A stretch of 64,000 nucleotides of DNA from Paucibacter sp. Y2R2-4 (lineage in GTDB: Bacteria; Pseudomonadota; Gammaproteobacteria; Burkholderiales; Burkholderiaceae_C). Below are positions 7,443 through 52,340 of the stretch, in pieces (positions within the stretch are counted from its first letter, which is position 1; each line of letters begins with the position of its first letter). The stretch spans positions 310,001-374,000 of the forward strand of contig NZ_JAJIRO010000004.1 in assembly GCF_025717535.1 (NCBI RefSeq). Direction: 5' to 3'. Both the position numbers and the translations under genes were made by a program. The notes under the pieces were generated by a model. The model was given only the letters and a program-made list of their open reading frames with translations. It made no database searches and was not told the origin of the DNA.

Positions 7443-7472
7443 ACGCGCAATCGCCAGCCTCGCGGCAGCTCA

Positions 7473-8225: not shown

Positions 8226-8275
8226 GGCGAACTCAAAGCTTGGGGTGGGGACAGGCCCCCAGTGTGCCAGCAAGT

Positions 8276-32256: not shown

Positions 32257-32763
32257 ATGAACACCGCCTTGATGACCTCCCGCCTGCATCGCCTGCTCTG
32301 CTGGAGCAGCCTGTCGCTTCTTCTGGCCTCATCCGCCTGCGCCGAGGACCCCATGAAAAGCAAAGCCGCCGCAAGCCCAAGCAACCCAACAAGCGCAGCC
32401 CCCAAAGCCGAGCCCGCCAGCGCCCAGCTTTGGCGCGAGATCAAGGCTGAAATTGGCGACGCGGAATGCGACGGCCCGCAGCAATGCCACACCATCGGCG
32501 TTGGCGCCAAGGCCTGCGGCGGCCCGGAGGGATATCTCGCCTGGTCCAGCAAAAACACCGACGGCAAAAAGCTGAAGAGCCTGGTTGAGCGCCACAGCGC
32601 TGCTCGCGACGAAGAAAACCGCCGCAGCGGCATGGCCTCCAACTGCGCCATCCCACAAGACCCCGGCGCCGTCTGCGTGGCCGAGCCCAGCGGCCGCAAG
32701 GTCTGCAAGCTGGGCAGCTTGCCCACATTTGGGGGTCAAGTCTTGCCCAAGTCGGCGCAGTAG
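32257..32763 (+). CDS. Secreted hypothetical protein with Cys-rich domain
   Basis: 168 residues; start at 32257 (MNTALMTSRLHRLLCWSSLS). A signal peptide ends near ASSACAED; the cysteine there is not in a classical lipobox, so lipidation is doubtful. After an Ala/Pro/Ser linker the mature domain contains DAECDGPQQCHTIGVGAKAC, GGPEGYLAWSS and a C-terminal part with NCAIPQDPGAVC and KVCKLG. The GAKACGGPExYLAWS pattern recurs in betaproteobacterial proteins of unknown function. It follows the efflux operon by 68 bases and may be cotranscribed. Confidence 0.7.
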   Translation: MNTALMTSRLHRLLCWSSLSLLLASSACAEDPMKSKAAASPSNPTSAAPKAEPASAQLWREIKAEIGDAECDGPQQCHTIGVGAKACGGPEGYLAWSSKNTDGKKLKSLVERHSAARDEENRRSGMASNCAIPQDPGAVCVAEPSGRKVCKLGSLPTFGGQVLPKSAQ

Positions 32764-33482: not shown

Positions 33483-33518
33483 CTAAAGAAAAAGGCCGGT
33501 CGCTTGCGCGCCGGCCTT
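33483..33518 (-). terminator. Intrinsic terminator of the first S8 protease gene
   Basis: Read on the minus strand, AAGGCCGG and CCGGCCTT pair across an 11-base loop and are followed directly by TTTCTTTAGGG. It lies about 40 bases after the protease stop at 33559, as expected for a Rho-independent terminator ending the PEP-CTERM/protease unit. Confidence 0.8.
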
Positions 33519-33558: not shown

Positions 33559-36500
33559 TCAGTTGGCGGTGCCAGACACCTTGGCCGAGCTGCTTGGAGG
33601 CACTTCGGTCACAGGCAGGCCGCCGTTGGCTTCGACGCGAACCACGGTGGTTGCTTGCACCACACCGGCTGCATCCTTGAACTGGACGGCGCCCAGGGTG
33701 CGCTGACCCAGGGTCAGACCAGACCAGCTGATACCGATGGTGGTGTTGTTACCCGCCACCACCTTGCCAGGCACGGCAACGGTGAACTTCGCAGCCAAAT
33801 CAGCAGGTGTCACCACCCAGCTCGACAGCTTGTGCGTCATGCTGGCGGCGCCACCGTAAGCGACCACGCAGACCTTGTAGTTGCCGGCCGCAGGGCTGGC
33901 GACTTGCACGGCTTCATTGGAGCCACCATTGCCCGAGTAGACCCAGCTGCCATCCGGAGCCAGCAAGCCCATGTCGTTGTCATCGCCGGCGGTGCCCACA
34001 TCGGCATCACGCAGAGCGAAGCGAGCGGCCACGGTGCCGGCGGGAATCGCCACGTTGTAGACCTTCATGTTCGGCAGATCGGTGCCGGTCACGCAAGCGG
34101 CCTTCAAGGGAGCTGAGTCCAGCTTGCCCGGGGTCAAGCTGACGACTTCACCCAAGGTCACGTCCTTCAGTCCACCCTTGACCGCCGTCATGGCGCCGGA
34201 GTAGCCGGTCTTCACGGCAATCAGGCGGGTGCCCGACTGGGTGTTGCCGGTCAACTCAGCAGGTGCCGAGATGGCCTTGCCAATGCGGGCCTGCACCGGG
34301 CTCCTGACCACATGGCTGCCATCCGTCCAGGTCAGCGAACCAAACTTCCATTCGCCTTCGGTGGTACCAGCCACGCCGGTCAGCTTGACGGTGAAGCTCT
34401 TGGTTTCGCCAGCGGCCAGAGTCAAGGATGCAGGTGTGACGACGGCGGTGAAGCCAGGCACAGTCGCAGCGCTGGTGTAAGTGGCCGTTGCGCCGCCCAC
34501 ATTGGTCACGCTACGGTTCACGGTGACGCTGCCCTGCACGCTGCCGACGGTGATCGAAGGCAGGTTCAGGTTGTAGGTCTCATCCAGCGTGCCGTAGGTG
34601 GTGCAATCGCTGGCAGGAATCACCGCAGGCTTGTTCACCTTGCACTGGTACTTGATGTAGTCAGCCTTGCCAGCGTCATACACCAGGCCTGGGTTGGTGG
34701 CCTTGTTCGGGTCCACATGACCTGCACCTTGCGCCCATGGCAGCAAACCGTTCTGAGCGCCGATCAGGCCGTCGTCCAGGGTGGTGTAAGCCGTGGTCAT
34801 CAGGGCAGACTTGATCGCTGCAGGCGACCAAGTCGGGTGAGCTTGCTTCAAGAGCAAGCCCAGACCGGCCACATGCGGGCTGGACATCGAAGTGCCTTGG
34901 TAGGACGCGTAAGCATCACCTGGCACGAAGCTGCCGTCCGCCACGCCCGTGTGTTGAGCAGGCGTCAGTTCCGGCGAAACGCTGGCGATGATGTCCACGC
35001 CCGGCGCAGTCAGGTCAGGCTTCAGGATGTTGCTGTCGCCTTGGTTCGGGCCACGCGAAGAGAAGCCGGCCATGATGGGCGCGGGCTTCTTACCAACGTA
35101 GAAAGCGCTCAGAGCCGAAGTCGCTGCATCGCCTTGGGCCACGGCATAAGCCTTGATGGTGTCGCCATCAGCCTTGCTGACGTGCACAGTCGGCACCGAG
35201 TGGGCCTCAGCCACCAAGCCTGCGCCGTTGTCGGCCAAGATCATGCCGATACCGCCGGCATTCAGCACGGCCAAGCTCTTGTCCACACGGGCATTGGTGC
35301 CGCGGGTGCAGACGACGATCTTGCCGGTGACCTTGGCGGGGTCCAGCAGCACTTGGCCAGCGCCAGGAGCTGCGCTGTAGCAAAGGTTGGCGTTGCCGCC
35401 GCCCAGACCTGCATCCTCAGCGCGGATCAGCGCACTGGAGGCCAAGGGAGCGGTGTTGGTCGAAGCGCCGAAGTACTTGGCGGCATTGCCCAGCACCACA
35501 TCGGCTTGGAAGTTACGGTCGTGGGTCGAAGCGGCCACGGTCGTCAGCCATGGGCTGATGTGGGCCACTTGATTGGCCGGGCCGCTGTTGCCCGCAGATG
35601 CGGCCACAAACACGCCGGCCAAAGAAGCACGATAGAAAGCCTGCTCGACGGGGTCGTTGACCGAAGTCTGCGAGCCGCTGATCGAATAGTTCAGGACATG
35701 CACGCCGTCCTTCACTGCGTCGTCGATCGCCTTGACCGAGTCCGAGTTGAAGCAGCTGTTTTTGGAGCCGGTGCCGTCGGTGGCCGTGGCATCGTCATAA
35801 GTCCAGCAGACCTTGTAGGCGGCCACGCGAGCACGCGGAGCCACGCCGGAAGCCTTGCCCAAGACCAAGCCATTGACCACGGCGGTCACGCCGGAGTTAC
35901 CAGCGGCAGTCGACGCTGTGTGGTCACCGTGGCCGCCGTGGCCGGCGGTCTTGCCATCGCTGCCGACGTTGGAGTCGCGGGTGGAGTAGAACTCGGTCCA
36001 GTTCTTGGGCAGACCGGTGGCGATGAAGCCCGCGTTGTAGAACTTGGCGCCGATCAGCTTGTTGTTGCAATGCTTGGCGGGGTCGAAGCCTTCACCGGCT
36101 TGGCAGCTGCCCAGGAAGCCAGGGATGGGGTTGTAAGCCAGGGTGCCGGCAGGATCAAAAGTCGGGTTGCCGTTGGCGTCAACGCGGTCCGCGAAAGCCG
36201 GATTCTCAGGCCAAATACCGCCGTCAATGATGCCGACGATCATGTTCTCGCCCTTGATGGCCGAGCCCGAGATGGTCTGCGACCACAGGCCGCCAGGCGC
36301 GGTCAGACCAAGGAAGTCAGGGGTGCTGACGGTCTGGTACTCACGTGCCACATCTTCAAAAACATCGGCCACTTCGGCGCTGGTACGCAGCGTCGCGACT
36401 TCAGCATCGGTCAGACGCGCGGCAAAGCCGTTGAACACCACCTGGTAGTTGGCCAGCACCGGCGCATTGCCGACCAGCTGGGCCACGCTGCGCTGCTTCT

Positions 36501-36729
36501 GATCCAGATAGCCAACATAGGCCACCACCTCAGGAGCATTGGCATTGAAGCGTGCGCCTTGGGCGGCACGGGTCGGTGCCATTTTGGCTGTGCCGCCCAC
36601 ATAGGTGGCAGCAGGCTCGTCCTTCAGTTGAACGATATAGGTCTTGCGTGCATCAGCCAGGGCGTTGGTGGCCAGGCCGGTCAGCAGCACCAGGGTGGCC
36701 AGGGCTGCGGGCTTGAGTTTCATCATCAT
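33559..36729 (-). CDS. Secreted subtilisin-like S8 serine protease (copy 1)
   Basis: 1056 residues. Signal peptide (~1-26), Inhibitor I9-type propeptide (~30-130, KTYIVQLKDEPAATYVGG and VVFNGFAARLTDAEVATL), then the S8 domain. The triad is D169 (IIDGGIWPENP), H267 (GHGDHTASTAAG) and S614 (GTSMSSPHVAGL); the oxyanion Asn is N381 (AGNSGP). A PA domain is inserted at ~430-550, with the NAGGIGMILADNGAG stretch. Two beta-sandwich domains follow: an Fn3-like one (VTVNRSVTNVGGATATYTS) and a C-terminal one of the PPC type. This is the plant-subtilase-like architecture, with no C-terminal anchor. RBS AAGGA lies upstream, 31 bases after the PEP-CTERM gene. It should be exported and self-processed. Confidence 0.95.
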   Translation of the reverse strand: MMMKLKPAALATLVLLTGLATNALADARKTYIVQLKDEPAATYVGGTAKMAPTRAAQGARFNANAPEVVAYVGYLDQKQRSVAQLVGNAPVLANYQVVFNGFAARLTDAEVATLRTSAEVADVFEDVAREYQTVSTPDFLGLTAPGGLWSQTISGSAIKGENMIVGIIDGGIWPENPAFADRVDANGNPTFDPAGTLAYNPIPGFLGSCQAGEGFDPAKHCNNKLIGAKFYNAGFIATGLPKNWTEFYSTRDSNVGSDGKTAGHGGHGDHTASTAAGNSGVTAVVNGLVLGKASGVAPRARVAAYKVCWTYDDATATDGTGSKNSCFNSDSVKAIDDAVKDGVHVLNYSISGSQTSVNDPVEQAFYRASLAGVFVAASAGNSGPANQVAHISPWLTTVAASTHDRNFQADVVLGNAAKYFGASTNTAPLASSALIRAEDAGLGGGNANLCYSAAPGAGQVLLDPAKVTGKIVVCTRGTNARVDKSLAVLNAGGIGMILADNGAGLVAEAHSVPTVHVSKADGDTIKAYAVAQGDAATSALSAFYVGKKPAPIMAGFSSRGPNQGDSNILKPDLTAPGVDIIASVSPELTPAQHTGVADGSFVPGDAYASYQGTSMSSPHVAGLGLLLKQAHPTWSPAAIKSALMTTAYTTLDDGLIGAQNGLLPWAQGAGHVDPNKATNPGLVYDAGKADYIKYQCKVNKPAVIPASDCTTYGTLDETYNLNLPSITVGSVQGSVTVNRSVTNVGGATATYTSAATVPGFTAVVTPASLTLAAGETKSFTVKLTGVAGTTEGEWKFGSLTWTDGSHVVRSPVQARIGKAISAPAELTGNTQSGTRLIAVKTGYSGAMTAVKGGLKDVTLGEVVSLTPGKLDSAPLKAACVTGTDLPNMKVYNVAIPAGTVAARFALRDADVGTAGDDNDMGLLAPDGSWVYSGNGGSNEAVQVASPAAGNYKVCVVAYGGAASMTHKLSSWVVTPADLAAKFTVAVPGKVVAGNNTTIGISWSGLTLGQRTLGAVQFKDAAGVVQATTVVRVEANGGLPVTEVPPSSSAKVSGTAN

Positions 36730-36760
36730 TTTGATTGGTCCTTGCTCAGAGAGGGGGAGA

Positions 36761-37495
36761 TCAAACAGCGCGGCGACGACCAGCGATAGCGCCCACGGCC
36801 AGCAGACCGGCAGCCATCAGGCCATAGGTCGAAGGCTCAGGCACGGCGGTCGTGACGTTGATGTTGTCAACAGCAATATTGGCCAAGTTGCCAGAGCGAT
36901 TGCAATTGCCAGCGGCGTCACAGGCATAACCCAGGACACGAACGGCCGTGAAATCAAGGCTTGCGAAGGTGCCCGTGAAGTCGGTCGTTGCGAAGTTGAA
37001 CTGGCCGTTAGTTGGACCGGACAAAGGTACTTGCACCGCCGAGCCAAGCGCGTTGAGGTTTGCGTCAAAACCTTGCAGCACCAAAATGCCGCTGACGGCG
37101 GGGAAGCTGGTCTGGCCGGTGCCGATGAAGCTGGCCTGCAGGCTGCTCATCTTGAAGGTGCTGTTGTTGTTCAGGCCAAACACGAAGTAACCGTCGTCCA
37201 ATGCGGCGTAGTACTTACTCGTGTTGTTCACCGGGCAAGCGATCGGCGCCTGGCAGATGGTGGGATCACTGCCGTCAACAATGGCACCCGCGAAGGTGCC
37301 GGGCACGGCCGTTGTACCGGAGGCTGCCCATGAAAGGGCAGTCACCCAGAAGTCGCCTTGGGCGATTTTGTCGCCATGCCCAACAATGGTCGAATCCACC
37401 GGCGCCTCAAAGTCCAAAACCGCTGCCTGGGCGGAGCCCATGGCCATCACTGCCAATGCAAGTGCTGCTGCCTTGCTGATCATCTTTTGTTTCAT
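36761..37495 (-). CDS. PEP-CTERM surface protein (QFxxD-like, copy 1)
   Basis: 244 residues; start at 37495 (MKQKMISKAAALAL) after the leader motif GAGGGC. The signal peptide ends at SAQAA. The body is beta-rich (VLDFEAPVD, then GSDPTICQAPIACPVNNTSK and YYAALDDGYFVFGL). The C-terminus has the exosortase signal VPEPSTYGLM, a hydrophobic helix and GRRRAV. The VDNINV strand just before the signal corresponds to the xxD part of the QFxxD motif. Exosortase would cleave and attach it to a surface polymer. It is cotranscribed with the S8 protease 31 bases downstream. The related copy is at 41261-41950. Confidence 0.92.
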   Translation of the reverse strand: MKQKMISKAAALALAVMAMGSAQAAVLDFEAPVDSTIVGHGDKIAQGDFWVTALSWAASGTTAVPGTFAGAIVDGSDPTICQAPIACPVNNTSKYYAALDDGYFVFGLNNNSTFKMSSLQASFIGTGQTSFPAVSGILVLQGFDANLNALGSAVQVPLSGPTNGQFNFATTDFTGTFASLDFTAVRVLGYACDAAGNCNRSGNLANIAVDNINVTTAVPEPSTYGLMAAGLLAVGAIAGRRRAV

Positions 37496-37535
37496 GTCTT
37501 GCCCTCGTTCCCAATAGTTGGGGTGTTGCACACCA
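37496..37535 (-). promoter_or_regulatory. 5' leader with hairpin, shared with the other PEP-CTERM unit
   Basis: On the minus strand the leader runs GTGCAACACCCC, then the hairpin CCCAA-CTA-TTGGG, then the ribosome-binding GAGGGC and GAC-ATG. The same sequence, with a compensatory stem change, precedes the second PEP-CTERM gene (41951-41989). The hairpin sits immediately before the ribosome-binding site, a position suited to translational or protein-mediated control. A second shared box lies upstream at about 37565-37590. Confidence 0.65.
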
Positions 37536-37564
37536 CAGATGAAGTTGACCTGGCTGTCCTCGGT

Positions 37565-37590
37565 GATACCAAGGTGCCGGTGCAACCCAG
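37565..37590 (-). promoter_or_regulatory. Conserved upstream box of PEP-CTERM unit 1
   Basis: The minus-strand sequence CTGGGTTGCACCGGCACCTT followed by GGTATC aligns with the block at 42018-42042 before the other unit (CTAGGTTGCGCGCGGACTTG then TGATC). Both lie about 68-95 bases upstream of the respective ATG. It may be the promoter or an activator site; no convincing sigma-54 -24/-12 match was found in it. Confidence 0.4.
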
Positions 37591-37850
37591 CTCTCTCGCC
37601 ACGACTGCATGCTTGGCAGTGCTTTGGCTTGAGCGACCGATTCTCAACAGGCAAGCCAAGGGGGGCATCCCAACTTGCCCGCCCCCCAGAGCGGGGGGGA
37701 AAGGGTTTTCACCAAACGTTCACAAAGCACCCGGCCGCGAGCTTCGGTTATAGGAGCGAGCCCATTTCGCGCTATTTTTCTCCTGGCACCGCAGAAAATT
37801 CGGGTTAGTCCCAATGAGGCTGTCAAGTGAAAAAGCCACAGATTGGAAAG

Positions 37851-37884
37851 AAAAAGGAGATGAATCTTTCGATTCATCTCCTTT
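37851..37884 (-). terminator. Intrinsic terminator of the second S8 protease gene
   Basis: Read on the minus strand, AAAGGAGATGAATC and GATTCATCTCCTTT form a perfect 14-bp stem closed by a GAAA tetraloop, followed by TTCTTTCC. It is about 88 bases after the protease stop at 37972. A textbook Rho-independent terminator that separates the two duplicated units. Confidence 0.9.
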
Positions 37885-37971
37885 GGTAGCGGTTTCAAAA
37901 GTCCGCTTGAAAAAGCAGCTAGCTCCGAGAGAGCCAGCCACCCATTTTTCTCAGTTTTTCATCGCGCCCAA

Positions 37972-40900
37972 TCAGTCCAGTTGTGGGCGAGCCACGCGTG
38001 AAACTTGCTGGGTCGGTAGCGGGTCATTGGTATTGATCTCGACCAGGGTGGTGCCCAGCATCGTGCCATTGCCCACATAGCTGATGGCCCCCAGGTGGCG
38101 CTTGCCACGGCTCAAGCCCGACCAGCTCAGACCGATCGAAGCGCTACCGCCGGTGCTGACCTTGCCCGGAGCCAAAACCTTCAAGTTGCCCACACCCACA
38201 CCGCCGTTGACCACCCAGGACGAAAGCGTGTAAGTCGCCGTGCCGCCCTCGGGGTCATAGCCCACCACGCAGACCTTGTAGTCGCCCGCCGCTGGGCTGC
38301 TCAGCTGCACCAGCTCGGTGGAGCCACCCGTGCCACTGCTGCCCACTTGCGTGCCATCGGCCTTGAAGACCAAGAGGTCCAGGTCGGAGTTGGCGCCGCC
38401 GGTCGTCTCCTCGTTGTAAAGAGCAAACCGCGCCACCATGGCCCCAGGCGCCACGCTGACCGTGTGCACATTGATACCCTGGCCACCGCCGGCTTTGCAG
38501 GTGGCTGCGGTATTGGTGGTGTCGGGTTGCTTGCCGATGCTGCGGGTGTCACGCGCGGCCTCGTTCAAGCCGCCTTTGGCGGCACTCAGCGAACCGCTGT
38601 ACCCAGTACCCAAGGTAAAGACCTTGCTGCCGCTGGTGGTCTCGCTACTGACCGAGTTGGGAGCCGACAGCAGCGCAGCGCGCGCCGTCAGCGGGCTGCG
38701 CACCACGCGGCTGCCGTCAGACCAGGTCAAGGCACCGTAGGCCCAGGTATCGATCGCCGCGCTGCTTCGGGTCAGCTTGACGGTGAAGCTGGCCTTGGCA
38801 CCGGGCGCCAGAGTCAGGCTGCTGGGCGACACCAGCACATCAAAGCCCGGCACGGCGGCAACGGCGTTGTAAGTGGCCGTGGCATTACCGACGTTCGTCA
38901 CGGTACGCGTCAGCGTGGTGGAACCCAACACCGCCGCTGCAGTCAGCGAGGCCAGGTTCAGGTTGTAAGCCGGGATTGTGCCGGCCGCCACGCAAGTCGG
39001 GCCGTCGTAAACACCGGCATTGATGCCGCACAGGAAGCGCTTGTAATCGAGTTCGCCCGCGTCATAGACCAAGCCCGGGTTGCTCGCATCGTTGGGCGTG
39101 ACATGGCCAGCACCCTGAGCCCAGGGCAGCTTGCCGGTGTCTTTGGCCGAGGTATCCCAGGGCAAAGCGCCATTGCGGCCATCGCTGAAGGTGTCTTTGC
39201 CGGTGGTCATCAAGGCTGACTTGATCATGGCCGGCGTCCAACTCGGATGCTGCTGCTTGAGCAAGGCGGCCAAGCCCGCCACATGCGGGCTGGACATGGA
39301 GGTGCCGGTGTAGAACGCAAAGTTGGTGGCCGTGGTGGCGCCGCCCGCAGCGATCGCATCGCGCGCCGCCTGGTCCAGATTAGGTGACACGGTGGCCAAC
39401 ACATCGGTGCCCGGGCCGGTGACATCGGGCTTCAGGATATTGGCGTTGGCCACATTGGGGCCGCGCGAGGACGAACCATTCATCACCGGCGCCGGCGTCG
39501 CGCCCACCGTGGCCGCCCATGTGGAGATCGCCGAAGTGCCGGCCGCCCCCGCCGCATAAGTCCGTACCGCAGGCGCATCACTGGCGTACAAGTGGACCGT
39601 GGGCACCGAGTGCGCCTCTGAGACCACACCGGCACCGTTGTCCAACAAGAGCATGCCGACGCCGCCGGCGGCCGCCACCACCGCACTCTTTTCAACCCGT
39701 GCATTGGTGCCGCGCGTGCAAGCGACGACCTTGCCGGTGACCTTGGCGGGGTCCAGGCTGTTCGGGAAGCACAGATTCGCGTCTGACACGCTCGCCGCTG
39801 CCGCCTTGGCCTCGGTCGAGAGGATCAATGTTGTTTGCGGCAGCGCAGTGGTGTTCAGCGAGGCGCCCACATATTTGGCGCCATTGCCCAAGGTGGCGGT
39901 CGCGCCGTTCAAGCGGTTGTGGGTGGAGTTGCCCACCGTTGCATGCCAGGGCCCCAGATTGGCCGCCGGGCCGGTGGCCGGACCCGCATTGCCCGCCGAA
40001 GCCGCCACAAACACCCCCGCGTTCGACGCGCCCAAGAAGGCCAGCTCCGAGGGGTCGGTAAAGGTGCCGCCGCCGGCCGTGGGGCCGATGGAGTAATTCA
40101 GTACGTCGACACCATCCCGGACCGCTTGTTCCACGGCCGCCACGGTATTGCTGTCCGAGCAGCCGCTTTTCAGCGTGATGCCATCGGTCCAGCAGACCTT
40201 GTAGGCCGCCACACGGGCGCGCGGCGCAATGCCCGAGACCTTGCCGAAAGCGCTGCCGCCGGAGGTCGCCGGCACGCCGCCATTGCCACCCGCGGTGGAG
40301 GCGGTGTGCGAGCCGTGACCGCCACCGCCGCCTTGCACCGCGTCACGGGCGGAGTTGAACTCAAGCGGCGCCAGTGTTTGCAGCGGGTCTTTGAAGGCCT
40401 TCAGACCAATCAGCTTGTTATTGCAATTGGCCGCCGTCAGCCCCTCGCCCAGATCGCAACCGCCCTTCCACTTGGCGGGGGGTGGACCATAGACCTGGGT
40501 GCTGTTGACCAAGCTGTGCGTGGGCTCGCCGGTGCTGTTGTCGACGCGATCGGCAAAGCTGGGGCTTTCGGGCCAGATGCCGCTGTCCAACATGCCGATG
40601 ATCATGTCCTCACCCGCATGCTGCGGGCCACCCAGCTGCTCCCAGAGGCCGCCGGGCACCTTGTCCAGGCCCAAGAAAGTGGGGGTGTAATTGGTGTCCA
40701 ACTGCTTGATGGCGTCGGCCGAGATATTCGCCACGGCCGGGTTGCGCTTCAGGGCGCGCACCTCAGCGTCGGTCAGGCGCGCAGCAAAGCCATTGAAGAC
40801 CACGTTGTAACGGTGCGTGGGCCGAGCGTTGCTCAGGGTGGCCAACACCGCGTCTTGCTGCTGATCGAGATAGCTGATGTACGACTGCACATGGGCCGCC

Positions 40901-41100
40901 GACAGATCAAGGCGGCCTGTGCTGGATTTGGTGGCCGTGCGGCCACCGGCGCCGCCGGTGTAGTTGGCCGCCGGGGCGTCCACCAATTGAACAATATAGG
41001 AGCGACGAGTTTCTTGCGCCTGGGCTTGGCCTGCGGCGGACAAACCAGCCAGCAGAGTCAGTACGGCCAGGGCGGCGGGACGACGTGTTTTCATCATCAT
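37972..41100 (-). CDS. Secreted subtilisin-like S8 serine protease (copy 2)
   Basis: 1042 residues, collinear with copy 1 (33559-36729). The N-terminus MMMKTRRPAAL parallels MMMKLKPAAL. Signal peptide to ~30, I9-type propeptide (SYIVQLVDAPAANYTGG), and S8 domain with D172 (LDSGIWPESP), H262 (GHGSHTASTAGG), oxyanion N371 (SAGNAGP) and S601 (GTSMSSPHVAGL). The PA insert contains VGMLLLDNGAGVVSEAHSVP. The Fn3-like domain has TLTRTVTNVGNATATYN, and a PPC-like C-terminal domain has AAGDYKVCVVGYDPEGG. No anchor is present. Both copies keep all catalytic residues, so both should be active. It lies 160 bases after its PEP-CTERM partner, with a hairpin in between. Confidence 0.95.
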   Translation of the reverse strand: MMMKTRRPAALAVLTLLAGLSAAGQAQAQETRRSYIVQLVDAPAANYTGGAGGRTATKSSTGRLDLSAAHVQSYISYLDQQQDAVLATLSNARPTHRYNVVFNGFAARLTDAEVRALKRNPAVANISADAIKQLDTNYTPTFLGLDKVPGGLWEQLGGPQHAGEDMIIGMLDSGIWPESPSFADRVDNSTGEPTHSLVNSTQVYGPPPAKWKGGCDLGEGLTAANCNNKLIGLKAFKDPLQTLAPLEFNSARDAVQGGGGGHGSHTASTAGGNGGVPATSGGSAFGKVSGIAPRARVAAYKVCWTDGITLKSGCSDSNTVAAVEQAVRDGVDVLNYSIGPTAGGGTFTDPSELAFLGASNAGVFVAASAGNAGPATGPAANLGPWHATVGNSTHNRLNGATATLGNGAKYVGASLNTTALPQTTLILSTEAKAAAASVSDANLCFPNSLDPAKVTGKVVACTRGTNARVEKSAVVAAAGGVGMLLLDNGAGVVSEAHSVPTVHLYASDAPAVRTYAAGAAGTSAISTWAATVGATPAPVMNGSSSRGPNVANANILKPDVTGPGTDVLATVSPNLDQAARDAIAAGGATTATNFAFYTGTSMSSPHVAGLAALLKQQHPSWTPAMIKSALMTTGKDTFSDGRNGALPWDTSAKDTGKLPWAQGAGHVTPNDASNPGLVYDAGELDYKRFLCGINAGVYDGPTCVAAGTIPAYNLNLASLTAAAVLGSTTLTRTVTNVGNATATYNAVAAVPGFDVLVSPSSLTLAPGAKASFTVKLTRSSAAIDTWAYGALTWSDGSRVVRSPLTARAALLSAPNSVSSETTSGSKVFTLGTGYSGSLSAAKGGLNEAARDTRSIGKQPDTTNTAATCKAGGGQGINVHTVSVAPGAMVARFALYNEETTGGANSDLDLLVFKADGTQVGSSGTGGSTELVQLSSPAAGDYKVCVVGYDPEGGTATYTLSSWVVNGGVGVGNLKVLAPGKVSTGGSASIGLSWSGLSRGKRHLGAISYVGNGTMLGTTLVEINTNDPLPTQQVSRVARPQLD

Positions 41101-41142
41101 GGTGAGATCTCTTCTTCCGTTAAAAGCGGACAGCGAAACTCA

Positions 41143-41168
41143 ATCACCCGTTTGTCCGGACGGGTGAT
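41143..41168 (-). promoter_or_regulatory. Intercistronic hairpin between PEP-CTERM copy 2 and protease copy 2
   Basis: ATCACCCGT and ACGGGTGAT form a perfect 9-bp stem with an 8-base loop. It lies in the 160-base gap between the two genes of this unit. On the minus strand it is followed by TGAGTTTCGC, so it is at best a partial terminator. It could instead set the ratio of the two products. The other unit has only 31 bases here and no hairpin. Confidence 0.45.
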
Positions 41169-41260
41169 GATGGGCGCATGACAGGTTCAGCGCTAAGGCT
41201 GCCGGGCCCGCGCCCGGACACTCTGCAAAAGAGCGAGAGCGTCCTGACGGGGAGCGGTGC

Positions 41261-41950
41261 TCAGCGCAAGCGGCGGCGCGACAGCTGGCCGAAGACGGCC
41301 AGGCCCAAGCCCATCAGCAGCCAGCTGCTCGGCTCGGGCACGGCGGTGGTGATGGCGATGTTGTCGAGGGCGAACTGCGCCTGGTTGAGTGCCAAACTGG
41401 TACACACCTCGTCGGCATCGAACAAGCAGGCGTTGAAGCGCACCGAGCTGAACTCGATCTGGCCGAACTGGCCGCCGATATTCCAGCGCGAGAAGTTGTA
41501 GTCGCCATTGGCATCCGTCGGGCTGAAGCGTTTGGCAATGGTGCTGACGCGGCCACTGGCATCGGTGCCGGTGATCTGCAGCATGCCCACGCTCAGATCA
41601 CCATTCAAGCCACCGGACGGCACAACAAAGCCAAAGTCCAGGCCGTTCAGGCGAAAGCCGCCGGCGGCGCTGAGGGTCAGCGAGCCATCGTTCAGGCCCA
41701 AGTAGTAGTGGCTGTTATTGCCCTTGGGGCAGAGCAAGGTGTCGCAGGAGCCCGGGTCGCTGCCGTCGATCAAGGCACCGGCCAAGCCATCGCCCTGCAC
41801 GCTGAAATTGGCCGCGCCATCGGAGAAGCTTTCGCCATCTCCGTAGATCGTGGGGCTGAGCCCCTCAAAGGTGAGCGTGGTGGCGGCCGACGCAGCCGAA
41901 GCGGCTGCCGTCATCGCGCAAACCAGCGCCAAACGATGCAATGTCTTCAT
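41261..41950 (-). CDS. PEP-CTERM surface protein (QFxxD type, copy 2)
   Basis: 229 residues. Signal peptide (MKTLHRLALVCAMTAAASA), then a beta-rich body with TTLTFEGLSPTIYGDGES, LIDGSDPGSCDTLLCPKGNN and SHYYLGLNDGSL. These align with GSDP…CP…NN…YY..L.DG in copy 1. The QFALDNIAITTAVPEPSSW stretch carries the QFxxD motif that names a PEP-CTERM subfamily. The sorting signal VPEPSSWLLMGLGLAVFG-LSRRRLR is complete. It is the first gene of the second protease unit and immediately follows the secretion operon in the same direction. Confidence 0.92.
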   Translation of the reverse strand: MKTLHRLALVCAMTAAASAASAATTLTFEGLSPTIYGDGESFSDGAANFSVQGDGLAGALIDGSDPGSCDTLLCPKGNNSHYYLGLNDGSLTLSAAGGFRLNGLDFGFVVPSGGLNGDLSVGMLQITGTDASGRVSTIAKRFSPTDANGDYNFSRWNIGGQFGQIEFSSVRFNACLFDADEVCTSLALNQAQFALDNIAITTAVPEPSSWLLMGLGLAVFGQLSRRRLR

Positions 41951-41989
41951 GTCTCGCCCTCTGTCCCGATGTCGGGGTGTTGCACATCA
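41951..41989 (-). promoter_or_regulatory. 5' leader with hairpin before PEP-CTERM copy 2
   Basis: Minus-strand GTGCAACACCCC is followed by the hairpin CCCGA-CA-TCGGG, a GAGGGC site and GAC-ATG. Compared with 37496-37535 the stem's A-T pair is replaced by G-C on both sides while flanks are almost identical, so the base-paired structure is conserved. The matching upstream box is at 42018-42042. Confidence 0.65.
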
Positions 41990-42207: not shown

Positions 42208-42774
42208 TCAGAACAAAGGACTGGAGGCCGCCGACTTGGGCAGTTCCGGCTCCGCGCCGGTCTTGCTGGCCGGAGCGCCGGCCGCGCCTGGCGCAAAAAT
42301 CCAGTCGCGCGCCAGTTGCACGGGCGTGCCGTCGGCCTGGGTCTGGCGCAAGAGCGCTTGCTCGGAGCGGCTGTGCACTGCATTGAAGCTTTTCGGATTG
42401 ACGGGGTCAGGCACCAGCACCCAATCGGGCTTGCCGGTAAAGGGGTCGGCATAAAGGCGCCGCAGGTGGTACAGGGTCTTGGGCCCGCGCGAGTCGGCCA
42501 GCAGATCGTTCAAGGTCTGCGGGCTTTGGCCTTGACCGGGCGCCTGGCTACCCGAGGCTTTTTGATAGCTGGCAATGGCCCGCGCAATCTCGCTGCCGCG
42601 GAACTCCAGCTCACGCTCTTTCTCGCGCTGAGCGGCGGTGCTCCAACTTTGGCCCAAGGCGGCCAAGGCCGCGGCCGTGATGGCAACAAAAAACAGCAGG
42701 CCCAGATAGGTGAAGCCGCGCTGCCGCCGGCAGCGCTCTGGCTTGGGCGCAGGCGTGGGCTCAGGCAAGACCAT
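42208..42774 (-). CDS. Type II secretion-like pseudopilin (third of the distal set)
   Basis: 188 residues; ATG at 42774 overlaps the previous stop (TGATG); a GTG three bases earlier is possible. A basic leader is followed by the prepilin-like RGFTYLGLLFFVAITAAAL, in which the usual Glu at +5 is replaced (FTYLGLL), so it may be processed poorly or act as a minor pseudopilin. The central QREKERELEFRGSEIARAIA and DPFTGKPDWVLVPDP segments resemble GspG-like "secretion system X" pseudopilins. Last gene of the operon. Confidence 0.8.
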   Translation of the reverse strand: MVLPEPTPAPKPERCRRQRGFTYLGLLFFVAITAAALAALGQSWSTAAQREKERELEFRGSEIARAIASYQKASGSQAPGQGQSPQTLNDLLADSRGPKTLYHLRRLYADPFTGKPDWVLVPDPVNPKSFNAVHSRSEQALLRQTQADGTPVQLARDWIFAPGAAGAPASKTGAEPELPKSAASSPLF

Positions 42775-43172
42775 CACCAGTCGGCAAACAGCCGCCCATC
42801 ACTGGCGCGACCCGCGGCGCCGCTGCGCACGTCATAAACCTGGCCGGTGGCCATGGCATCGGGCGGCGGCGCCAGCAGGACCCAGGCCTCGCGGCTGCCG
42901 GTCAGCGGGTCTTCCGGAATTTCACGGATATAGCGCGCCGTCACCAGCTCTTCCAGCGAGTCGGGATAACGCCCCTTGTCGGCGGCATATTGGTCCAGCG
43001 CATCGCGCATCACATTCAGCGAGGTGCGCAGCGAAGTTTCGCGCGACTTTTGCAGGCTGTTGAAATAGCGCGGCGCGGCAATCGAGGCCAGCAGCGCCAC
43101 GATGGCCATCACCACAATCAGCTCGATCAGGGTGAAGCCGTTTGACTTGCATCTCTTCTTGTTCGCGCTCAT
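42774..43172 (-). CDS. Type II secretion-like pseudopilin (second of the distal set)
   Basis: 132 residues from ATG 43172, which shares its A with the preceding stop (TGATG). Class III prepilin signal NGFTLIELIVVMAIVALLAS with Glu at +5, so a type IV prepilin peptidase should cleave after the Gly. The globular part contains LRTSLNVMRDALDQYAADKG, RYPDSLEELVTARYI and EDPLTGSREAW, the GspG pattern. It probably assembles with the neighbouring pseudopilins into the pilus-like piston. Confidence 0.9.
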   Translation of the reverse strand: MSANKKRCKSNGFTLIELIVVMAIVALLASIAAPRYFNSLQKSRETSLRTSLNVMRDALDQYAADKGRYPDSLEELVTARYIREIPEDPLTGSREAWVLLAPPPDAMATGQVYDVRSGAAGRASDGRLFADW

Positions 43173-43642
43173 CACCAATCTCTGTAGCGGCTACCGTCCA
43201 GCGCGCGTCGCTCGGAACGCGAGTAGACATCAAACACATCCTTGCCGGCGCGCGGCTCGTCCGGCGGGCTGTCGGCCGCACGCAAGCCCCAGCTGGCCGC
43301 CGGCTCCAAGGCCGGGTCGGCAAAGGGGTCACGCGGCAGGCGGCGCAAAAAGTAAATCTTCTTTTCTTCTGAAGAGCGCGCATCGGCCACGCCCGCGACC
43401 AGGGCCTGCAAACTGGGCGGATAGCCGCTGTCATCGGCATTGCTCTTGACCTGGCCAGCCTCGGTGGCTTTTTTGTAAGCATCGATGGCGCCGCGCAGGG
43501 TCCGCAAGCCGGCGCGCAACTCATGCTCGCGGCTGCGCTGCACGGACATTTCCAGCAAGGGCCGCGCCGAGCCCGCCAGCATTGCCAGAATGGCCAGCAC
43601 CACCAACATCTCGATCAAAGTAAAGCCGCGCTGCTGCACCAT
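43172..43642 (-). CDS. Type II secretion-like pseudopilin (first of the distal set)
   Basis: 156 residues; start 43642 (MVQQRGFTLIEMLVVLA). The prepilin peptidase site is G^FTLIE, very close to the N-terminus. The body has LRTLRGAIDAYKKATEAGQV, GYPPSLQALVAGV and LRRLPRDPFADP, then DVYSRSERRALDGSRYRDW. These are GspG-like features with the DPW-type loop replaced by DPF. It begins 31 bases after the secretin stop. Confidence 0.9.
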   Translation of the reverse strand: MVQQRGFTLIEMLVVLAILAMLAGSARPLLEMSVQRSREHELRAGLRTLRGAIDAYKKATEAGQVKSNADDSGYPPSLQALVAGVADARSSEEKKIYFLRRLPRDPFADPALEPAASWGLRAADSPPDEPRAGKDVFDVYSRSERRALDGSRYRDW

Positions 43643-43673
43643 GGCTGCACTCAATCCTCGCTGCAGCGCAGGC

Positions 43674-45905
43674 TTAACGCGCCGCGTCCACGCTGACCAG
43701 GCCGGTGCCGTCCAGGCGCACCGAGACCGGTTCACCATTCAGACCCGTGGCCGACAGCGCCCCCAGGCCCACATTCAGCACCTGACCATTGGCCGAGGGC
43801 AGCGCCCGCAGCACCACCACCTTCTCGCCGCGCGGCAGCAGCTCAATCGCCACACGTCCATTGCCTGAGGCGCCGCCTTGCGCCGGTGCCAGCTTGCTGG
43901 CGTCGTATTCCACTTCACCCTTGATGCTGAAGCCGCTGTCATTCTTCATCGTCACCGAGACCGTACCGCCGGGCGCCACTTGCGGGCTGACCTCAAAGCG
44001 CAGCACCGCTTCTTGCGGCGCCGCCATGCTGGCCGCCTCGGCCGGTGCGCTGGGCGTGGGCGTTAGCGCACGCAGGCCCGAGGACGCTGCTTGCGAAGGG
44101 CCCACACCCGCCTTGGCATTTGGCTTCAGCAAGCTGCTGAAGGCGCCGGGCGAGGCATCGGTGCCGCCGGCCAAACGGGTCAGGCCCGCGTCCGGCAAGG
44201 CCAGATTGCGCACGATACGCGGCGTGATCAACAGCACCACCTCGGTCTTCTTGCGGTCTTCGGTACGCACGCCGAACAAGCTGCCCAGCACCGGGATCTC
44301 CGACAAGCCCGGGATGCCCGAGGCCGAGCGGCGGTCTTCATCGCTGATCAAGCCGGCCAGCACTTGCGTTTCGCCATCGTTCAGGCGCAGCGTGGTGCCG
44401 GTTTGGCGGGTGCCGATCTCGTAGGCGGTGGTGCCGCCAGGCCCTTGCACCTGGCGGATCAGATTGCTGACCTCCAGGCCGACCTTGATGATGACGTCGT
44501 TGTCGAGTTGGATGGTGGGCTCCACATCGAGCTTCAGGCCCACATCCAGATAGCTGACCGAGGCCGCCACCGAAGTGCTGCCGGTGAAGTTGGTGGTGGT
44601 GGTGAAGACCGGCACCTTCTGGCCGATGTGCACCTTGGCCTTGTCGCGGTTGCGCACCCGGATCTTCGGATTGGCCAGGATATTGCCATTGCCGGAGTTG
44701 CCGCGAATCGTGGCCACCACAGCCGGATTCGCCACCATGGCGCGGAAGTTATTGTGCTGGCCCAGTTCCACCTGGCCGGTCGCCAGACCGCCATTGAAGC
44801 CGGGCAGGCCGTAGCTGATTTGATCGGGGAACTTCAGGCCCAAATCATTGACGCGGTCGCTGGAGAGTTCCATCACCTCCACTTCCAGCATCACCTCGGG
44901 CTCAGGCAGATCCACCGAGGCGATCAGCTTCTCCACCAGCCGCACCACCTCGGGCGTGTCGCGCACCACCATCAGGTTCAGCCGCTCGTCGATGTGGATG
45001 TCGCGCACCTTGGTGATGGTGCGCACCATGGCCTGCACCTGCTTGACGTCGGCATTGGTCAGATAGAGCGTGCGGGTGATCAGTTCCTGGTGTTCACGCT
45101 GCTTGGCTGCGGTGTTAGGGAAGATCAGCACCGAGCTGTCGTTCAGCAGCTTGCGGTCCAGCCCTTGAGTGGACAGCAACACACGCATCGCTTCGTCGAG
45201 CGAAACATTGCGCAAGAAGATGCTGACCTTGGCGTCGGAACGCACGTCTTTGTCGAACACAAAGTTGATGTTCGAGCTGCGCGCCAAGGCCTCAAAGACC
45301 TGGCGCATCGGGGCTTCACGGAACTCCAGCGTCACCGGCTTTTGAAAGGACGGCCCCATCTCACTGCTGGCCGACTCCAGCGGCCGCGCCTGGGCCGACT
45401 GACTCATCAAAAGACGCGCGCCCACATGGTTGGGCGACTCGGCCAGGATCTCGCGGGCCAAGGCGTCGGCGCGATCCAAGCGGCCTTCACGCAGGGCTTG
45501 GCGGGCTGAGATCAGCTTGGCCTCTTGCAAGCGGCCGCGCGACAGCTCAGCCTCGTACCAAGCCAGGCGCGGATGCTTGGGGTCCACCTCGCGCAAGCGC
45601 TGCACGGCTTCATTCGCCTCGTCCCAACGAGCGGCCAGACGCATGCCCTCGATCTGCGCCAGCAAGCGGGTCGTCATTTGATTGGCGATACGCAGCTGCG
45701 CGGCGCGCAAGGCCTGGTCATGAGGGTCGAGCTTGCGCGCCTGCTCGAGCGTCTCATAGGCCTGCGGCAACTGGTTGGAGCGCACCATCTCATCGGCCTG
45801 GCGCAGCGCCGGGTTGGCGCAAGCGGCCAGCAAGAGCGCCGCCAACAAGGTCAGCGCCGGGCCAGCCGGCCGGGCGAGCAAGGAGTGAAGAGGGTTCAGC
45901 TTCAT
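43674..45905 (-). CDS. gspD: TPR-containing outer-membrane secretin (GspD-like)
   Basis: 743 residues. Lipoprotein signal with lipobox LAAC (residues ~24-29). Residues ~30-170 are TPR-like helices (QAYETLEQARKLDPHDQALR). The STN/N0 domain (FREAPMRQVFEALARSSNIN) and secretin N domains follow (LNLMVVRDTPEVVRLVEKLI). The secretin core ends with IPGLSEIPVLGSLFG and EVVLLITPRIVRN. A further ~110-residue beta-rich domain (VLRFEVSPQVAPGGTVSVTM to the end) resembles cohesin-like modules and is absent from classical GspD. It forms the outer-membrane channel. Its start overlaps the gspC-like stop. Confidence 0.92.
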   Translation of the reverse strand: MKLNPLHSLLARPAGPALTLLAALLLAACANPALRQADEMVRSNQLPQAYETLEQARKLDPHDQALRAAQLRIANQMTTRLLAQIEGMRLAARWDEANEAVQRLREVDPKHPRLAWYEAELSRGRLQEAKLISARQALREGRLDRADALAREILAESPNHVGARLLMSQSAQARPLESASSEMGPSFQKPVTLEFREAPMRQVFEALARSSNINFVFDKDVRSDAKVSIFLRNVSLDEAMRVLLSTQGLDRKLLNDSSVLIFPNTAAKQREHQELITRTLYLTNADVKQVQAMVRTITKVRDIHIDERLNLMVVRDTPEVVRLVEKLIASVDLPEPEVMLEVEVMELSSDRVNDLGLKFPDQISYGLPGFNGGLATGQVELGQHNNFRAMVANPAVVATIRGNSGNGNILANPKIRVRNRDKAKVHIGQKVPVFTTTTNFTGSTSVAASVSYLDVGLKLDVEPTIQLDNDVIIKVGLEVSNLIRQVQGPGGTTAYEIGTRQTGTTLRLNDGETQVLAGLISDEDRRSASGIPGLSEIPVLGSLFGVRTEDRKKTEVVLLITPRIVRNLALPDAGLTRLAGGTDASPGAFSSLLKPNAKAGVGPSQAASSGLRALTPTPSAPAEAASMAAPQEAVLRFEVSPQVAPGGTVSVTMKNDSGFSIKGEVEYDASKLAPAQGGASGNGRVAIELLPRGEKVVVLRALPSANGQVLNVGLGALSATGLNGEPVSVRLDGTGLVSVDAAR

Positions 45906-46483
45906 GAGGAGGAAGGTCGGAAAACGAGTGTTTGGGGCAGCTTGGCGGGCAACCAGGTCAGGTTGATGCCACGCTCATGAACTTGGTCGACACGCCATTG
46001 GCCATCCACCACATCACCGGCCTTGACGGCCAGGCTGCGATTTGGCCCGGCCAGCAAGGCCTGCGCCTGATCGCCTTCCACCAGACGACCGAGCAGTTGA
46101 TACGGGAAGGCCGGTGCCATCGGCGGCGCCGGAGGTGCAGGAGGCGCAGCCGCCACCTTGGGCGGCGGCGGTGGGGGCGGCGGCGACCAGGCGGCGAACT
46201 GGGACTCAGCTGCGGCTTGCCAGGCGCCGCGCTCGGGCGGCGACCAGCTGCTGGGCATGACGACCTCGGCGCTGGCCGGTGCAGCATTCTTTTGCGAAGC
46301 CCCGGCGGATGGCGATGTGCGTGCACCTGAAGCCGGCACCGGCTCACGACGATTGCTGGCCACGGGCCGCGCCAAGTTTTCGCTTTCCGCCTCTTCATGG
46401 CTGGCCACCCAGGCGCTGGCGGCCAGCGTCAGCAGCAAGGCAGCGCCCAAGGCATAACGGCGTTTTTGTGCGGTGAAGCTCAT
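45902..46483 (-). CDS. GspC-like bitopic protein with polyproline linker
   Basis: 193 residues. A short basic N-terminus and one transmembrane helix (YALGAALLLTLAASAWVA) are followed by a long disordered Pro/Ala/Ser linker including eight consecutive prolines (SPPPPPPPPK). A C-terminal domain follows, YQLLGRLVEGDQAQALLAGP and AVKAGDVVDGQWRVDQV, which is the beta-strand pattern of the GspC/PilP homology region. I recall the name "secretion system X translation initiation factor" for such proteins, which is a misnomer. It would link inner-membrane platform and secretin. Both ends overlap neighbouring genes by 4 bases. Confidence 0.8.
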   Translation of the reverse strand: MSFTAQKRRYALGAALLLTLAASAWVASHEEAESENLARPVASNRREPVPASGARTSPSAGASQKNAAPASAEVVMPSSWSPPERGAWQAAAESQFAAWSPPPPPPPPKVAAAPPAPPAPPMAPAFPYQLLGRLVEGDQAQALLAGPNRSLAVKAGDVVDGQWRVDQVHERGINLTWLPAKLPQTLVFRPSSS

Positions 46484-47061
46484 GGCCGGGCTCCTGCTGC
46501 TGCCGGCGCAACCGCTTCGCTGCGGCCATGCAAAGACCAGCTCATCTCGGCTTCCATCTCGGCGGCATTGGGCGTGGCGCGGCGCAGTTTCAAGGCATCC
46601 AGGCTCAGCGCCGAGTCATGTCGCAAAGCCGCCTCGATAAAGCTGCGCAGCTGCGCATAGCCGCCGCTGACCGGCATGCTGACGCGCAGGCGCTCCAAGC
46701 CGCTGCTCGCGTCCACGCTCAAACGATGTTCGGTGCGGCTGCTCACCAGACCCTGGCGCAGCGCGATTTCCAGCAAGTCGGCGAGGCGCTGCTGGCGCAA
46801 AGCCGAACTCGGCAAGGCCGCTTGCCACTGCGCCGCAGTCACCGGCGCCTGCTCGGCCTGAACTCCGGCGGCTTTCTGCGCCCGAATGCGGCTGCTGAGT
46901 TGATCGGCTTCGGCCTGCAAGGCGGCACTGCGCTGGTCCCAATGCTGGCTGAGCAGGGTCAGGCCTGCGGCCAAAACCAGACCGGCCAAGCCCATCAAGC
47001 CAGGCAGGCCCAAGGCTTGAGTGCCCGCTTTCAAACGGTCGATTGCTTTCATTTGGCTCAT
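46480..47061 (-). CDS. GspM/PilO-like inner-membrane platform protein
   Basis: 193 residues; ATG at 47061 overlaps the previous stop. One N-terminal transmembrane helix (GLMGLAGLVLAAGLTLLS) is followed by a coiled segment (AALQAEADQLSSRIRAQ) and a ferredoxin-like domain with LEIALRQGLVSSRTEHRLSV and LRSFIEAALRHDSALSLDAL. This is the GspM/PilO layout: GspM pairs with GspL to form the assembly platform. Confidence 0.8.
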   Translation of the reverse strand: MSQMKAIDRLKAGTQALGLPGLMGLAGLVLAAGLTLLSQHWDQRSAALQAEADQLSSRIRAQKAAGVQAEQAPVTAAQWQAALPSSALRQQRLADLLEIALRQGLVSSRTEHRLSVDASSGLERLRVSMPVSGGYAQLRSFIEAALRHDSALSLDALKLRRATPNAAEMEAEMSWSLHGRSEAVAPAAAGARP

Positions 47062-50073: not shown

Positions 50074-50075
50074 GT

Positions 50076-51443: not shown

Positions 51444-51893
51444 TCACCAGCTGACCAGGTCGGCATCTTCACCCTCGCCGCCCGGCCGGCCATCGCGGCC
51501 ATAGGAGAACAGGTCGTACTCGCCATGTTCGCCAGGCGAACGGTATTGATAATCGTTGTGCCAAGGGTCCTTGGGCAAGGCCTTGCTCAGATAGGGGCCT
51601 GCCCAGCGCGGCTCATCGGCCGGCTTGGTGACCAAGACCGCCAAGCCTTGTTCGGTGCTCGGGTAGCGACCCACATCCAAGCGGTATTGATCAAGCGACT
51701 TTTGCAAGCCGTCGATCTGTGCCCGCGCCGCCTTGACCTCGGACTTGCCGATCTGGCCAAAGAACTTAGGGCCCACATAGCCGGCCAGCAGGCCGATGAT
51801 GACCATCACCACCAGCAGTTCCAGCAGCGTGAAGCCACCCGATTTTGTTGATCTATTCAAAGCACGCATATACATACAACCCGGCTCATTCAT
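51444..51893 (-). CDS. gspG: Major pseudopilin GspG
   Basis: 149 residues from 51893; in-frame ATGs at 51875 and 51869 (MRALNRSTKSGG) give a more usual leader length. Prepilin site GG^FTLLELLVVMVIIGLLAG with Glu at +5. The globular part has the classical GspG features: KAARAQIDGLQKSLDQYRLD, VGRYPSTEQGLAVL, KALPKDPWHNDYQYRSPGEH and the calcium-site end DLFSYGRDGRPGGEGEDAD. It is the bulk subunit of the pseudopilus and the first gene of the operon. Confidence 0.96.
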   Translation of the reverse strand: MNEPGCMYMRALNRSTKSGGFTLLELLVVMVIIGLLAGYVGPKFFGQIGKSEVKAARAQIDGLQKSLDQYRLDVGRYPSTEQGLAVLVTKPADEPRWAGPYLSKALPKDPWHNDYQYRSPGEHGEYDLFSYGRDGRPGGEGEDADLVSW

Positions 51894-52340
51894 TGACCGC
51901 GAGCTGACAGCGGCTACGCTGGCGTCGCCACTTTTTCAGCCCCTCTTCCTCTGAAACTCCTGAAAGTTCAGGATTCCCCCACCCTATCCTCTGGTCGCGG
52001 TCCGAATGGACTATTGCAGCAAGCCACCGCCTCGGCAATTGGGACTTGACCCCCCCTTGTTCAGAGGATTGAGAAAAGGGGGGTCCAGGGGACCGCCACT
52101 GTAACGGCGCCAAGTGACAGTTCGTTGCCACCCGCCATTCGGCTCATAGGCTTTGCCGCCTTTTTCACCGGGCAAGTCCGGATGGATGGGCCTTAGAGCC
52201 TAGAACGGCCGGACAGAGCCCCATCACCGGGTCATATGCCTTCGTTAATCTGAGCGCAGATCGGCGACCTTGCCACACATGCACAGACCGTGCTTGGGCA
52301 AGCGGTGGCCGAAGCCTCGTCCACCCCTAGGAGTCTTTCG
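51894..52340. promoter_or_regulatory. 447-base divergent control region between gspG and a PEP-CTERM gene
   Basis: No gene is seen. A strong inverted repeat, GACCCCCC(C)TT…AAGGGGGGTC at about 52048-52085 with a ~17-base loop, lies mid-region, followed by GGTCC-AGG-GGACC. Promoters for the leftward secretion operon and the rightward PEP-CTERM gene are expected here, but no consensus was identified with confidence. Confidence 0.45.

Follow-up and report, generated by a model that had tools for sequence, protein, structure and literature searches.

The window analysed here, a 64,000-nucleotide stretch of the genome of Paucibacter sp. Y2R2-4, carries on its minus strand two adjacent two-gene units, each composed of a small PEP-CTERM protein gene followed by the gene of an S8 protease (subtilase). 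Unit A consists of pepA and protA and unit B of pepB and protB, and the genes are read in the order pepA, protA, pepB, protB (Table 1). Both PEP-CTERM proteins score far over the cut-off of 80 bits of the NCBIfam family NF038120 (PEP_CTERM_QFxxD), and the profile PF07589, which covers the PEP motif, the hydrophobic helix and the basic end, is matched over its cut-off of 20.7 bits by pepA and pepB with 28.8 and 28.7 bits. The alignment of pepA with pepB contains 76 identical columns out of 222 (34%, E 1e-26) and that of protA with protB 529 out of 1073 (49%). The two proteases show the same domains, namely an I9 propeptide, the S8 domain (PF00082), PA and fn3_6, together with a PPC match below the gathering score; the closest PDB sequence matches of protB were 7eox ('Protease') and cucumisin 3vta. 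The catalytic residues D172, H265, N371 and S601 (numbering of protA) are kept in all 80 aligned protease rows, both window proteins included, and because of this active proteases are to be expected. The first-pass annotation had described two units of equal order whose proteins are homologous, clearly diverged and, as to the PEP-CTERM bodies, related; coordinates, profiles and alignments bear this out. In the window's genome two NF038120 genes over the cut-off and two such proteases (E <= 1e-5) were found, all from these units, along with two exosortases over the cut-off (TIGR02602). No plasmid relatives of pepA were found.

Conservation of the pair

Genome contigs were searched with an alignment of six PEP-CTERM proteins, the protease not being used, and 79 loci were obtained. 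S8-homologous DNA lies directly downstream and on the same strand in 78 of them; the protease of L127 is broken into pieces and those of L089, L100 and L116 run off their contigs. NF038120 was matched at E <= 1e-10 by 66 of the 66 aligned rows, of which 62 come from the 79 loci, two from genome G056 and two from the window. The 195 genomes examined in the family of G056 contain 56 NF038120 genes over the cut-off, spread over 43 genomes, and 52 of these genes have the protease 31-153 bp downstream; in the same 195 genomes, 52 of the 54 proteases (from 40 genomes) directly follow an NF038120 gene, one of these 52 containing a stop codon. Among the unpaired NF038120 genes, that of G604 reaches the contig end with the start of the protease present, and that of G605 has an internal stop and no relative of the paired protease in 17 kb of sequence, where S8 homology was limited to a brief match with a distant member. 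The two unpaired proteases are a tandem second copy in G056 and, in G683, an orphan with a stop codon beside a type II secretion system (T2SS). Joint decay appears to account for two of the exceptions. A survey of 200 genomes of the order gave NF038120 over the cut-off in four, and the same four contain the paired protease.

The pair is common among bacteria related to Massilia and Janthinobacterium, and 55 of the 79 loci belong to Oxalobacteraceae. The order of the unit is nevertheless kept across several families and in Rheinheimera, in surroundings that vary from a co-directional or divergent T2SS to pilB/pilC or none of these, and copies from different clades within the same genome stay paired (L061/L076, L064/L109). 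The pairing is thus real and conserved, as the first-pass annotation had predicted for the adjacency of the two genes, and is not confined to the window's genome. Locus L091 contains two divergent pairs, and in L055 a different, shorter S8 protease (832 residues; hit at 7022-8647) stands between T2SS pseudopilins and the pair.

The distances between PEP-CTERM proteins and those between their proteases were compared by a Mantel test, in which 19 of 85 PEP-CTERM rows stayed unpaired by the strict pairing rule. The correlation was 0.88 for 66 pairs and 0.84 for 41 non-redundant ones, a value reached by none of 2000 permutations, and in each of the 64 remaining pairs the PEP-CTERM protein and its protease are nearer to the same one of the two window units. 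A usable gspE, the gene of the T2SS ATPase, was available in 27 of 77 pairs (L115 left out) and in unit B. In these 28 units the correlation was 0.84 between PEP-CTERM protein and protease, 0.32 between PEP-CTERM protein and GspE and 0.40 between protease and GspE, the partial correlation of the pair given GspE being 0.82. The PEP-CTERM protein and the protease have diversified in step with each other, and each follows the adjacent secretion ATPase less closely.

Sorting signal and predicted structure of the PEP-CTERM partner

The surface tag is found on one member of the pair only. A PEP motif with a hydrophobic tail, in the strict pattern, ends 79 of 83 PEP-CTERM proteins, the other four having altered motifs and a similar tail. 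A hydrophobic C-terminal tail (hydropathy > 1.6) was found in none of 78 proteases; one protease tail holds the letters PEP, within a Pro-Glu run. The tails of the window proteases are likewise free of it, in agreement with the first-pass annotation, which had stated that these enzymes have no sorting signal. In the Rheinheimera loci L083 and L084 the partner ends in a hydrophobic-basic tail without PEP motif, which perhaps belongs to another sorting system.

The predicted model of pepA (mean predicted local distance difference test, pLDDT, 90.1) shows a mostly beta body between the signal helix and a C-terminal helix. Its top fold match in PDB was the cobalamin-binding BtuJ1 (E 4.3e-6, template modelling (TM) score 0.53), followed by BtuJ2/DUF4465 and by sugar-binding modules of families 22, 16 and 32, with TM scores of 0.25-0.39 by query length. 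The body is a predicted jelly roll, and its likeness to these sugar- and ligand-binding beta-sandwiches would lean weakly towards a binding or tethering role.

History of the two units

In a tree of 80 protease rows, from which S8 pieces shorter than 700 residues (L089, L100, L116 and four of L127) and the distant S8 of L055 had been left out, protA falls into a clade of 33 rows and protB into another clade with L094. A tree constrained to keep protA, protB and L094 in one group is worse by 412 log-likelihood units, with p 1.7e-74 in the approximately unbiased (AU) test, which was run on 30 rows with a quick search and no mixture model. The protease protB is 93% identical to that of L094, against 49% to protA. 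The DNA of L094 (about 85% identity) aligns with the window as far as 42301 and resumes at 37758, so that unit A is missing there. A recent tandem duplication is ruled out by the AU test and by this comparison; of the tandem duplication proposed in the first-pass annotation the adjacent paralogues stand and the recent local event does not. Units A and B are adjacent paralogues of two old clades, unit A having been either gained in the lineage of the window or lost in that of L094. In L044 (9990-16585) one PEP-CTERM gene is followed by two tandem S8 proteases which are mutual nearest relatives in the tree, and this is a real local duplication.

Terminators, leader and upstream box

The 3' end of each unit is formed by a stable hairpin followed by a T run, and the two strong terminators, one for each unit as had been annotated, have the same folding energy. 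The consensus scan caught only the first of them and returned overall 11 terminator-like sites, against 8.8 expected. The common upstream box and leader were also recovered. In the 5.13 Mb genome, exact copies of the 16-base box TGTGCAACACCCCNAC are confined to the two places before pepA and pepB, and 37 of 51 columns match in the last 50 bases before the two genes, as compared with 438 of 774 in the coding DNA. A stricter 35-base leader pattern matched pepB alone, pepA having a one-base gap. At two mismatches the box has 17 further places in the genome, against three for a reversed control pattern, and no PEP-CTERM reading frame lies within 1.5 kb of these 17. A wider regulon marked by the box was rejected, there being no further exact copy and no such frame near the two-mismatch places, although the latter outnumber those of the control. 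In the near relative L094 the box precedes the pepB orthologue; the exact G[TC]GCAACACC was not seen upstream in the 41 other loci examined there. Folding of the 50-base leaders did not surpass that of shuffled sequences (z 0.84 and -1.33), so that a structured RNA was discarded and we claim for the two leaders a common sequence only. Strict sigma-54 sites are described for other PEP-CTERM genes (PMC1569441). In a search for the -24/-12 site of the sigma-54/PrsR PEP-CTERM regulon, the DNA before pepA and pepB showed none of the strict kind; the loosest sigma-54 pattern, GG-N10-GC, occurs once before each.

Type II secretion-like operon upstream

Directly upstream of pepA lie ten co-directional and mostly overlapping genes (51893-42208) that resemble a T2SS (Table 1). 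Only GspG scores over its equivalog cut-off, GspE, GspF and the secretin match below theirs, and the L, M and C components are assigned by weak matches or by position. No prepilin peptidase was found among the ten genes scanned. At least two T2SS components occur upstream of the pair in 33 of 79 loci, and in 30 (24 divergent, six co-directional) after the removal of L117, L118 and L056, the last of which has upstream only a weak ATPase hit and its T2SS parts downstream. L117 and L118 were rejected as T2SS-linked, since the ATPase of L118 is PilB (806.5 bits, cut-off 675.65) and that of L117 looks alike; in both, the pair is directly downstream of the type IV pilus gene pilB and of a pilC/GspF-like hit.

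Of the 200 genomes of the order, 78 have a secretin of the type found in the window. Forty-six of the 200 contain both this T2SS and an NF038120 profile match of any kind, often to the tail alone, 25 the match only, 32 the T2SS only and 97 neither, an association with Fisher p 6.4e-8 that is not corrected for kinship. The surroundings of the secretin were followed in a control set of 91 loci besides the window and three loci with the pair. Within 4 kb downstream and on the same strand a PEP-CTERM frame was found in 13 of 45 clusters from PEP-positive genomes with enough sequence; on the opposite strand downstream there was none in 45, and on the upstream side, either strand, there were three in 23. 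The absence of such frames in 31 clusters of PEP-negative genomes is expected from their definition. The window's genome contains a second T2SS cluster of the same type (L192; G000 C2, 221000-240500) with a PEP-CTERM gene about 1.7 kb downstream, and in the window itself a further PEP-CTERM-like gene, read by eye, is located at the other end of the operon (52290-52958, plus strand), divergent from gspG.

Six-cysteine gene downstream

Convergent with protB lies a gene for a small lipoprotein-like protein with six cysteines, the only such place in the window. As the unit has a secretion-like operon upstream and this gene downstream, the system is larger than the two-gene pair first described. 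Three queries placed the six-cysteine gene downstream of the protease in 44 of the 68 loci that offer 1.5 kb or more of sequence; within 3 kb it occurs in 46 of the 79 loci overall, always on the opposite strand and nowhere else in the loci; the T2SS control loci gave none in 91. Loci of the Janthinobacterium clade and of Rheinheimera gave no such gene, nor did some of the Duganella and Rugamonas loci, and in L091 it was found beside one of the two pairs only. All 42 rows of an alignment made without L057, L061, L086, L111, L117 and L118 keep the six cysteines, as do 43 of the 46 loci, L111 not being counted among these as a wrong frame was read. Of the 42 rows, 37 have a cysteine in the lipobox region. 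The distances between six-cysteine proteins correlate with those between proteases at r 0.57 (46 rows, L111 left out), more loosely than for PEP-CTERM protein and protease. No Pfam, NCBIfam or PHROG family was matched over the cut-off, and no sequence in PDB. The predicted model has a confident core (mean pLDDT 82, 95 of 168 residues at 90 or above) and found no structural counterpart in PDB or BFVD at E <= 0.001, and neither profile nor fold matched known families of protease inhibitors. Plasmid relatives of the protein were not found. From its position and make-up, the protein may restrain or inhibit the protease.

Table 1. Features of the window that belong to the two units and their surroundings
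Feature	Positions	Strand	Evidence or remark
pepA, NF038120 PEP-CTERM protein of unit A, 229 residues	41261..41950	-	210.3 bits; PF07589
protA, S8 protease of unit A, 1042 residues, without C-terminal anchor	37972..41100	-	profiles, catalytic residues
pepB, NF038120 PEP-CTERM protein of unit B, 244 residues	36761..37495	-	215.5 bits
protB, S8 protease of unit B, 1056 residues, without C-terminal anchor	33559..36729	-	profiles, catalytic residues
Shared leader box before pepA	41971..41986	-	no mismatch
Shared leader box before pepB	37517..37532	-	no mismatch
Intrinsic terminator after protA	37853..37884	-	-20.9 kcal/mol, z -6.6; found by consensus scan
Intrinsic terminator after protB	33492..33518	-	-20.9 kcal/mol, z -4.0; not in consensus-scan list
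GspG major pseudopilin	51444..51893	-	TIGR01710, 179.9 bits (cut-off 88.85)
GspF-like inner-membrane protein, start codon unsettled	50076..51308	-	PF00482
GspE-like ATPase	48538..50079	-	TIGR02533, 498 bits (below cut-off of 630.25)
GspL/PilN-like protein, start codon unsettled	47058..48584	-	PilN match below gathering score; position
GspM/PilO-like protein, start codon unsettled	46480..47085	-	position only, no family match
GspC-like protein	45902..46483	-	weak NF041515 match, 19.3 bits
Secretin with N-terminal TPR-like region	43674..45905	-	PF00263, 146.5 bits; TPR_14, 24.2 bits (against 23.5)
Pseudopilin 1	43172..43738	-	N_methyl motif
Pseudopilin 2	42774..43178	-	profile scans
Pseudopilin-like 3, last before pepA	42208..42777	-	no family hit; same-place homologues in related T2SS clusters
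Small six-cysteine lipoprotein-like protein, convergent with protB	32257..32763	+	candidate inhibitor

Discussion

The reading that we favour, and hold tentatively, is that the pair forms one functional unit, in which an extracellular S8 protease is served by a partner bearing the tag that the enzyme lacks. The PEP-CTERM protein and the protease would enter the periplasm by Sec, and the protease, once folded, would be carried across the outer membrane by a type II secretion-like machine, such as that encoded next door in the window. The PEP-CTERM partner, after processing by the exosortase, would be placed at the cell surface or within the exopolysaccharide and would hold the protease there by its jelly-roll body, and the convergent six-cysteine protein would restrain the protease still in the envelope. 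The first-pass annotation had considered that the anchored protein could be a docking partner, a substrate or an inhibitor of the protease; a functional link, in the sense of a unit, is well supported by the conserved adjacency, and among these three kinds of link the fold leans weakly to docking.

Several observations weigh against this reading. Contact between the two proteins is a prediction here, and co-diversification shows a unit of inheritance and not contact, because linked genes share their history and correlate anyway. The fold matches of the jelly roll in Foldseek are moderate, the best TM score being 0.53. Intact NF038120 genes without protease occur in G748 and, as one copy, in G649, L122 is the lone locus of the 79 without S8 downstream, and three weaker matches under the cut-off in the 195 genomes have no protease. 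Among 369 genomes of the class, NF038120 over the cut-off is limited to the window's own, and a weaker class-wide match, G289, is without such a protease. The linkage does not speak for a general use of the proposed export route, 49 of the 79 loci having no such T2SS upstream in the available sequence. As to the restraining protein, 33 of the 79 loci are without its gene, some of them being cut by contig ends, the two units of the window have one such gene between them, and its third cysteine is absent in L117 and L118.

The same arrangement could be produced by co-regulated cargo that never comes into contact, the PEP-CTERM protein being a matrix protein and the protease an enzyme made at the same time which remodels or matures the matrix. 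The sugar-binding-like fold predicted for pepA would suit such a matrix protein, and other kinds of PEP-CTERM genes also follow the same type of T2SS, in the 13 of 45 clusters mentioned above. The near-obligate one-to-one order, the shared decay and the pair-specific co-diversification, however, exceed what plain co-regulation usually leaves behind, and we regard this explanation as possible but rather doubtful. It is unlikely that the PEP-CTERM protein is a substrate which the protease releases or matures, although one-to-one pairing and co-diversification suit an enzyme with a dedicated substrate equally well and there is a precedent in Geobacter, where a subtilisin-like protease reportedly matures one outer-surface protein, OmcZ; subtilases with PA and fn3-like domains are often broad in their specificity.

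A role of the PEP-CTERM protein as an inhibitor or folding helper of the protease would agree with its gene being the first of the unit and nearly always accompanied by that of the protease. The protease, however, has its own I9 propeptide, the best fold matches of pepA are sugar- and ligand-binding sandwiches, and the six-cysteine protein is the better-looking inhibitor candidate, so that such a role appears quite improbable. Adjacency inherited from a common ancestor alone could be suspected from the dominance of one family among the loci (55 of 79 Oxalobacteraceae). It would predict frequent separate occurrence, whereas separation is rare in both directions, the unit has the same order in several families and in Rheinheimera with differing neighbours, and where one genome carries copies from different clades these stay paired; we consider this explanation highly improbable.

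A literature search of open-licence papers returned no description of the pair and no paper on NF038120, and the pair is not described in the excerpts of PMC9850573, PMC1569441, PMC11980579, PMC3237569, PMC8929069 and PMC10599522. The family model itself, matched by pepA, pepB and all 66 aligned relatives, has a name that gives neither a role nor an S8 partner. According to the excerpt of PMC3237569, the GlyGly-CTERM/rhombosortase system places a tripartite C-terminal tag on secreted proteins, including serine proteases, in species with T2SS. It resembles the present system in the C-terminal sorting tag, the secreted serine proteases and the presence of T2SS, but the tag is there on the enzyme itself, whereas here an exosortase-type tag is on a separate partner; its authors found no particular subclass of T2SS, whereas here a particular T2SS cluster often adjoins the genes. 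In the MYXO-CTERM/myxosortase system a tagged protein gets to the surface through the T2SS; sorting enzyme and tag differ from those considered here, and the excerpt of PMC11980579 describes no dedicated protease partner. PepA of floc-forming bacteria is likewise a PEP-CTERM protein associated with an exosortase, for which a role with extracellular polymer was suggested (PMC9850573, PMC1569441), and PMC9850573, in the part available, names type II secretion as its route into the periplasm, without test. That PepA is RpoN-dependent, in contrast to the lack of a strict sigma-54 consensus before pepA and pepB, and no protease partner of it is described in the excerpts of the two papers.

The logic proposed here for the six-cysteine protein has its parallel in secreted proteases with a neighbouring inhibitor, such as AprA/AprI and PopC/PopD; the likeness is one of logic, and the six-cysteine family matches no curated family over a cut-off and no PDB sequence. 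The gene provides a concrete inhibitor candidate without known family or fold match. It is tempting to think of a three-part surface protease system, made of a secreted subtilase, a dedicated exosortase-sorted carrier docking it on the matrix and a small disulfide-rich lipoprotein, without known relatives, inhibiting it in the envelope, with delivery by a class of T2SS that serves PEP-CTERM bacteria. We consider this rather unlikely as a whole; if true, exosortase sorting and type II secretion would be connected, the partner carrying the surface tag in trans.

The way in which PEP-CTERM proteins cross the outer membrane and the role of most of them could both be addressed in a system where such a protein has a constant enzymatic companion and is frequently encoded next to a secretion operon of one kind; a few gene deletions in type strains with a T2SS-linked unit, for example of Massilia aurea or Chitinimonas taiwanensis, would serve for this.

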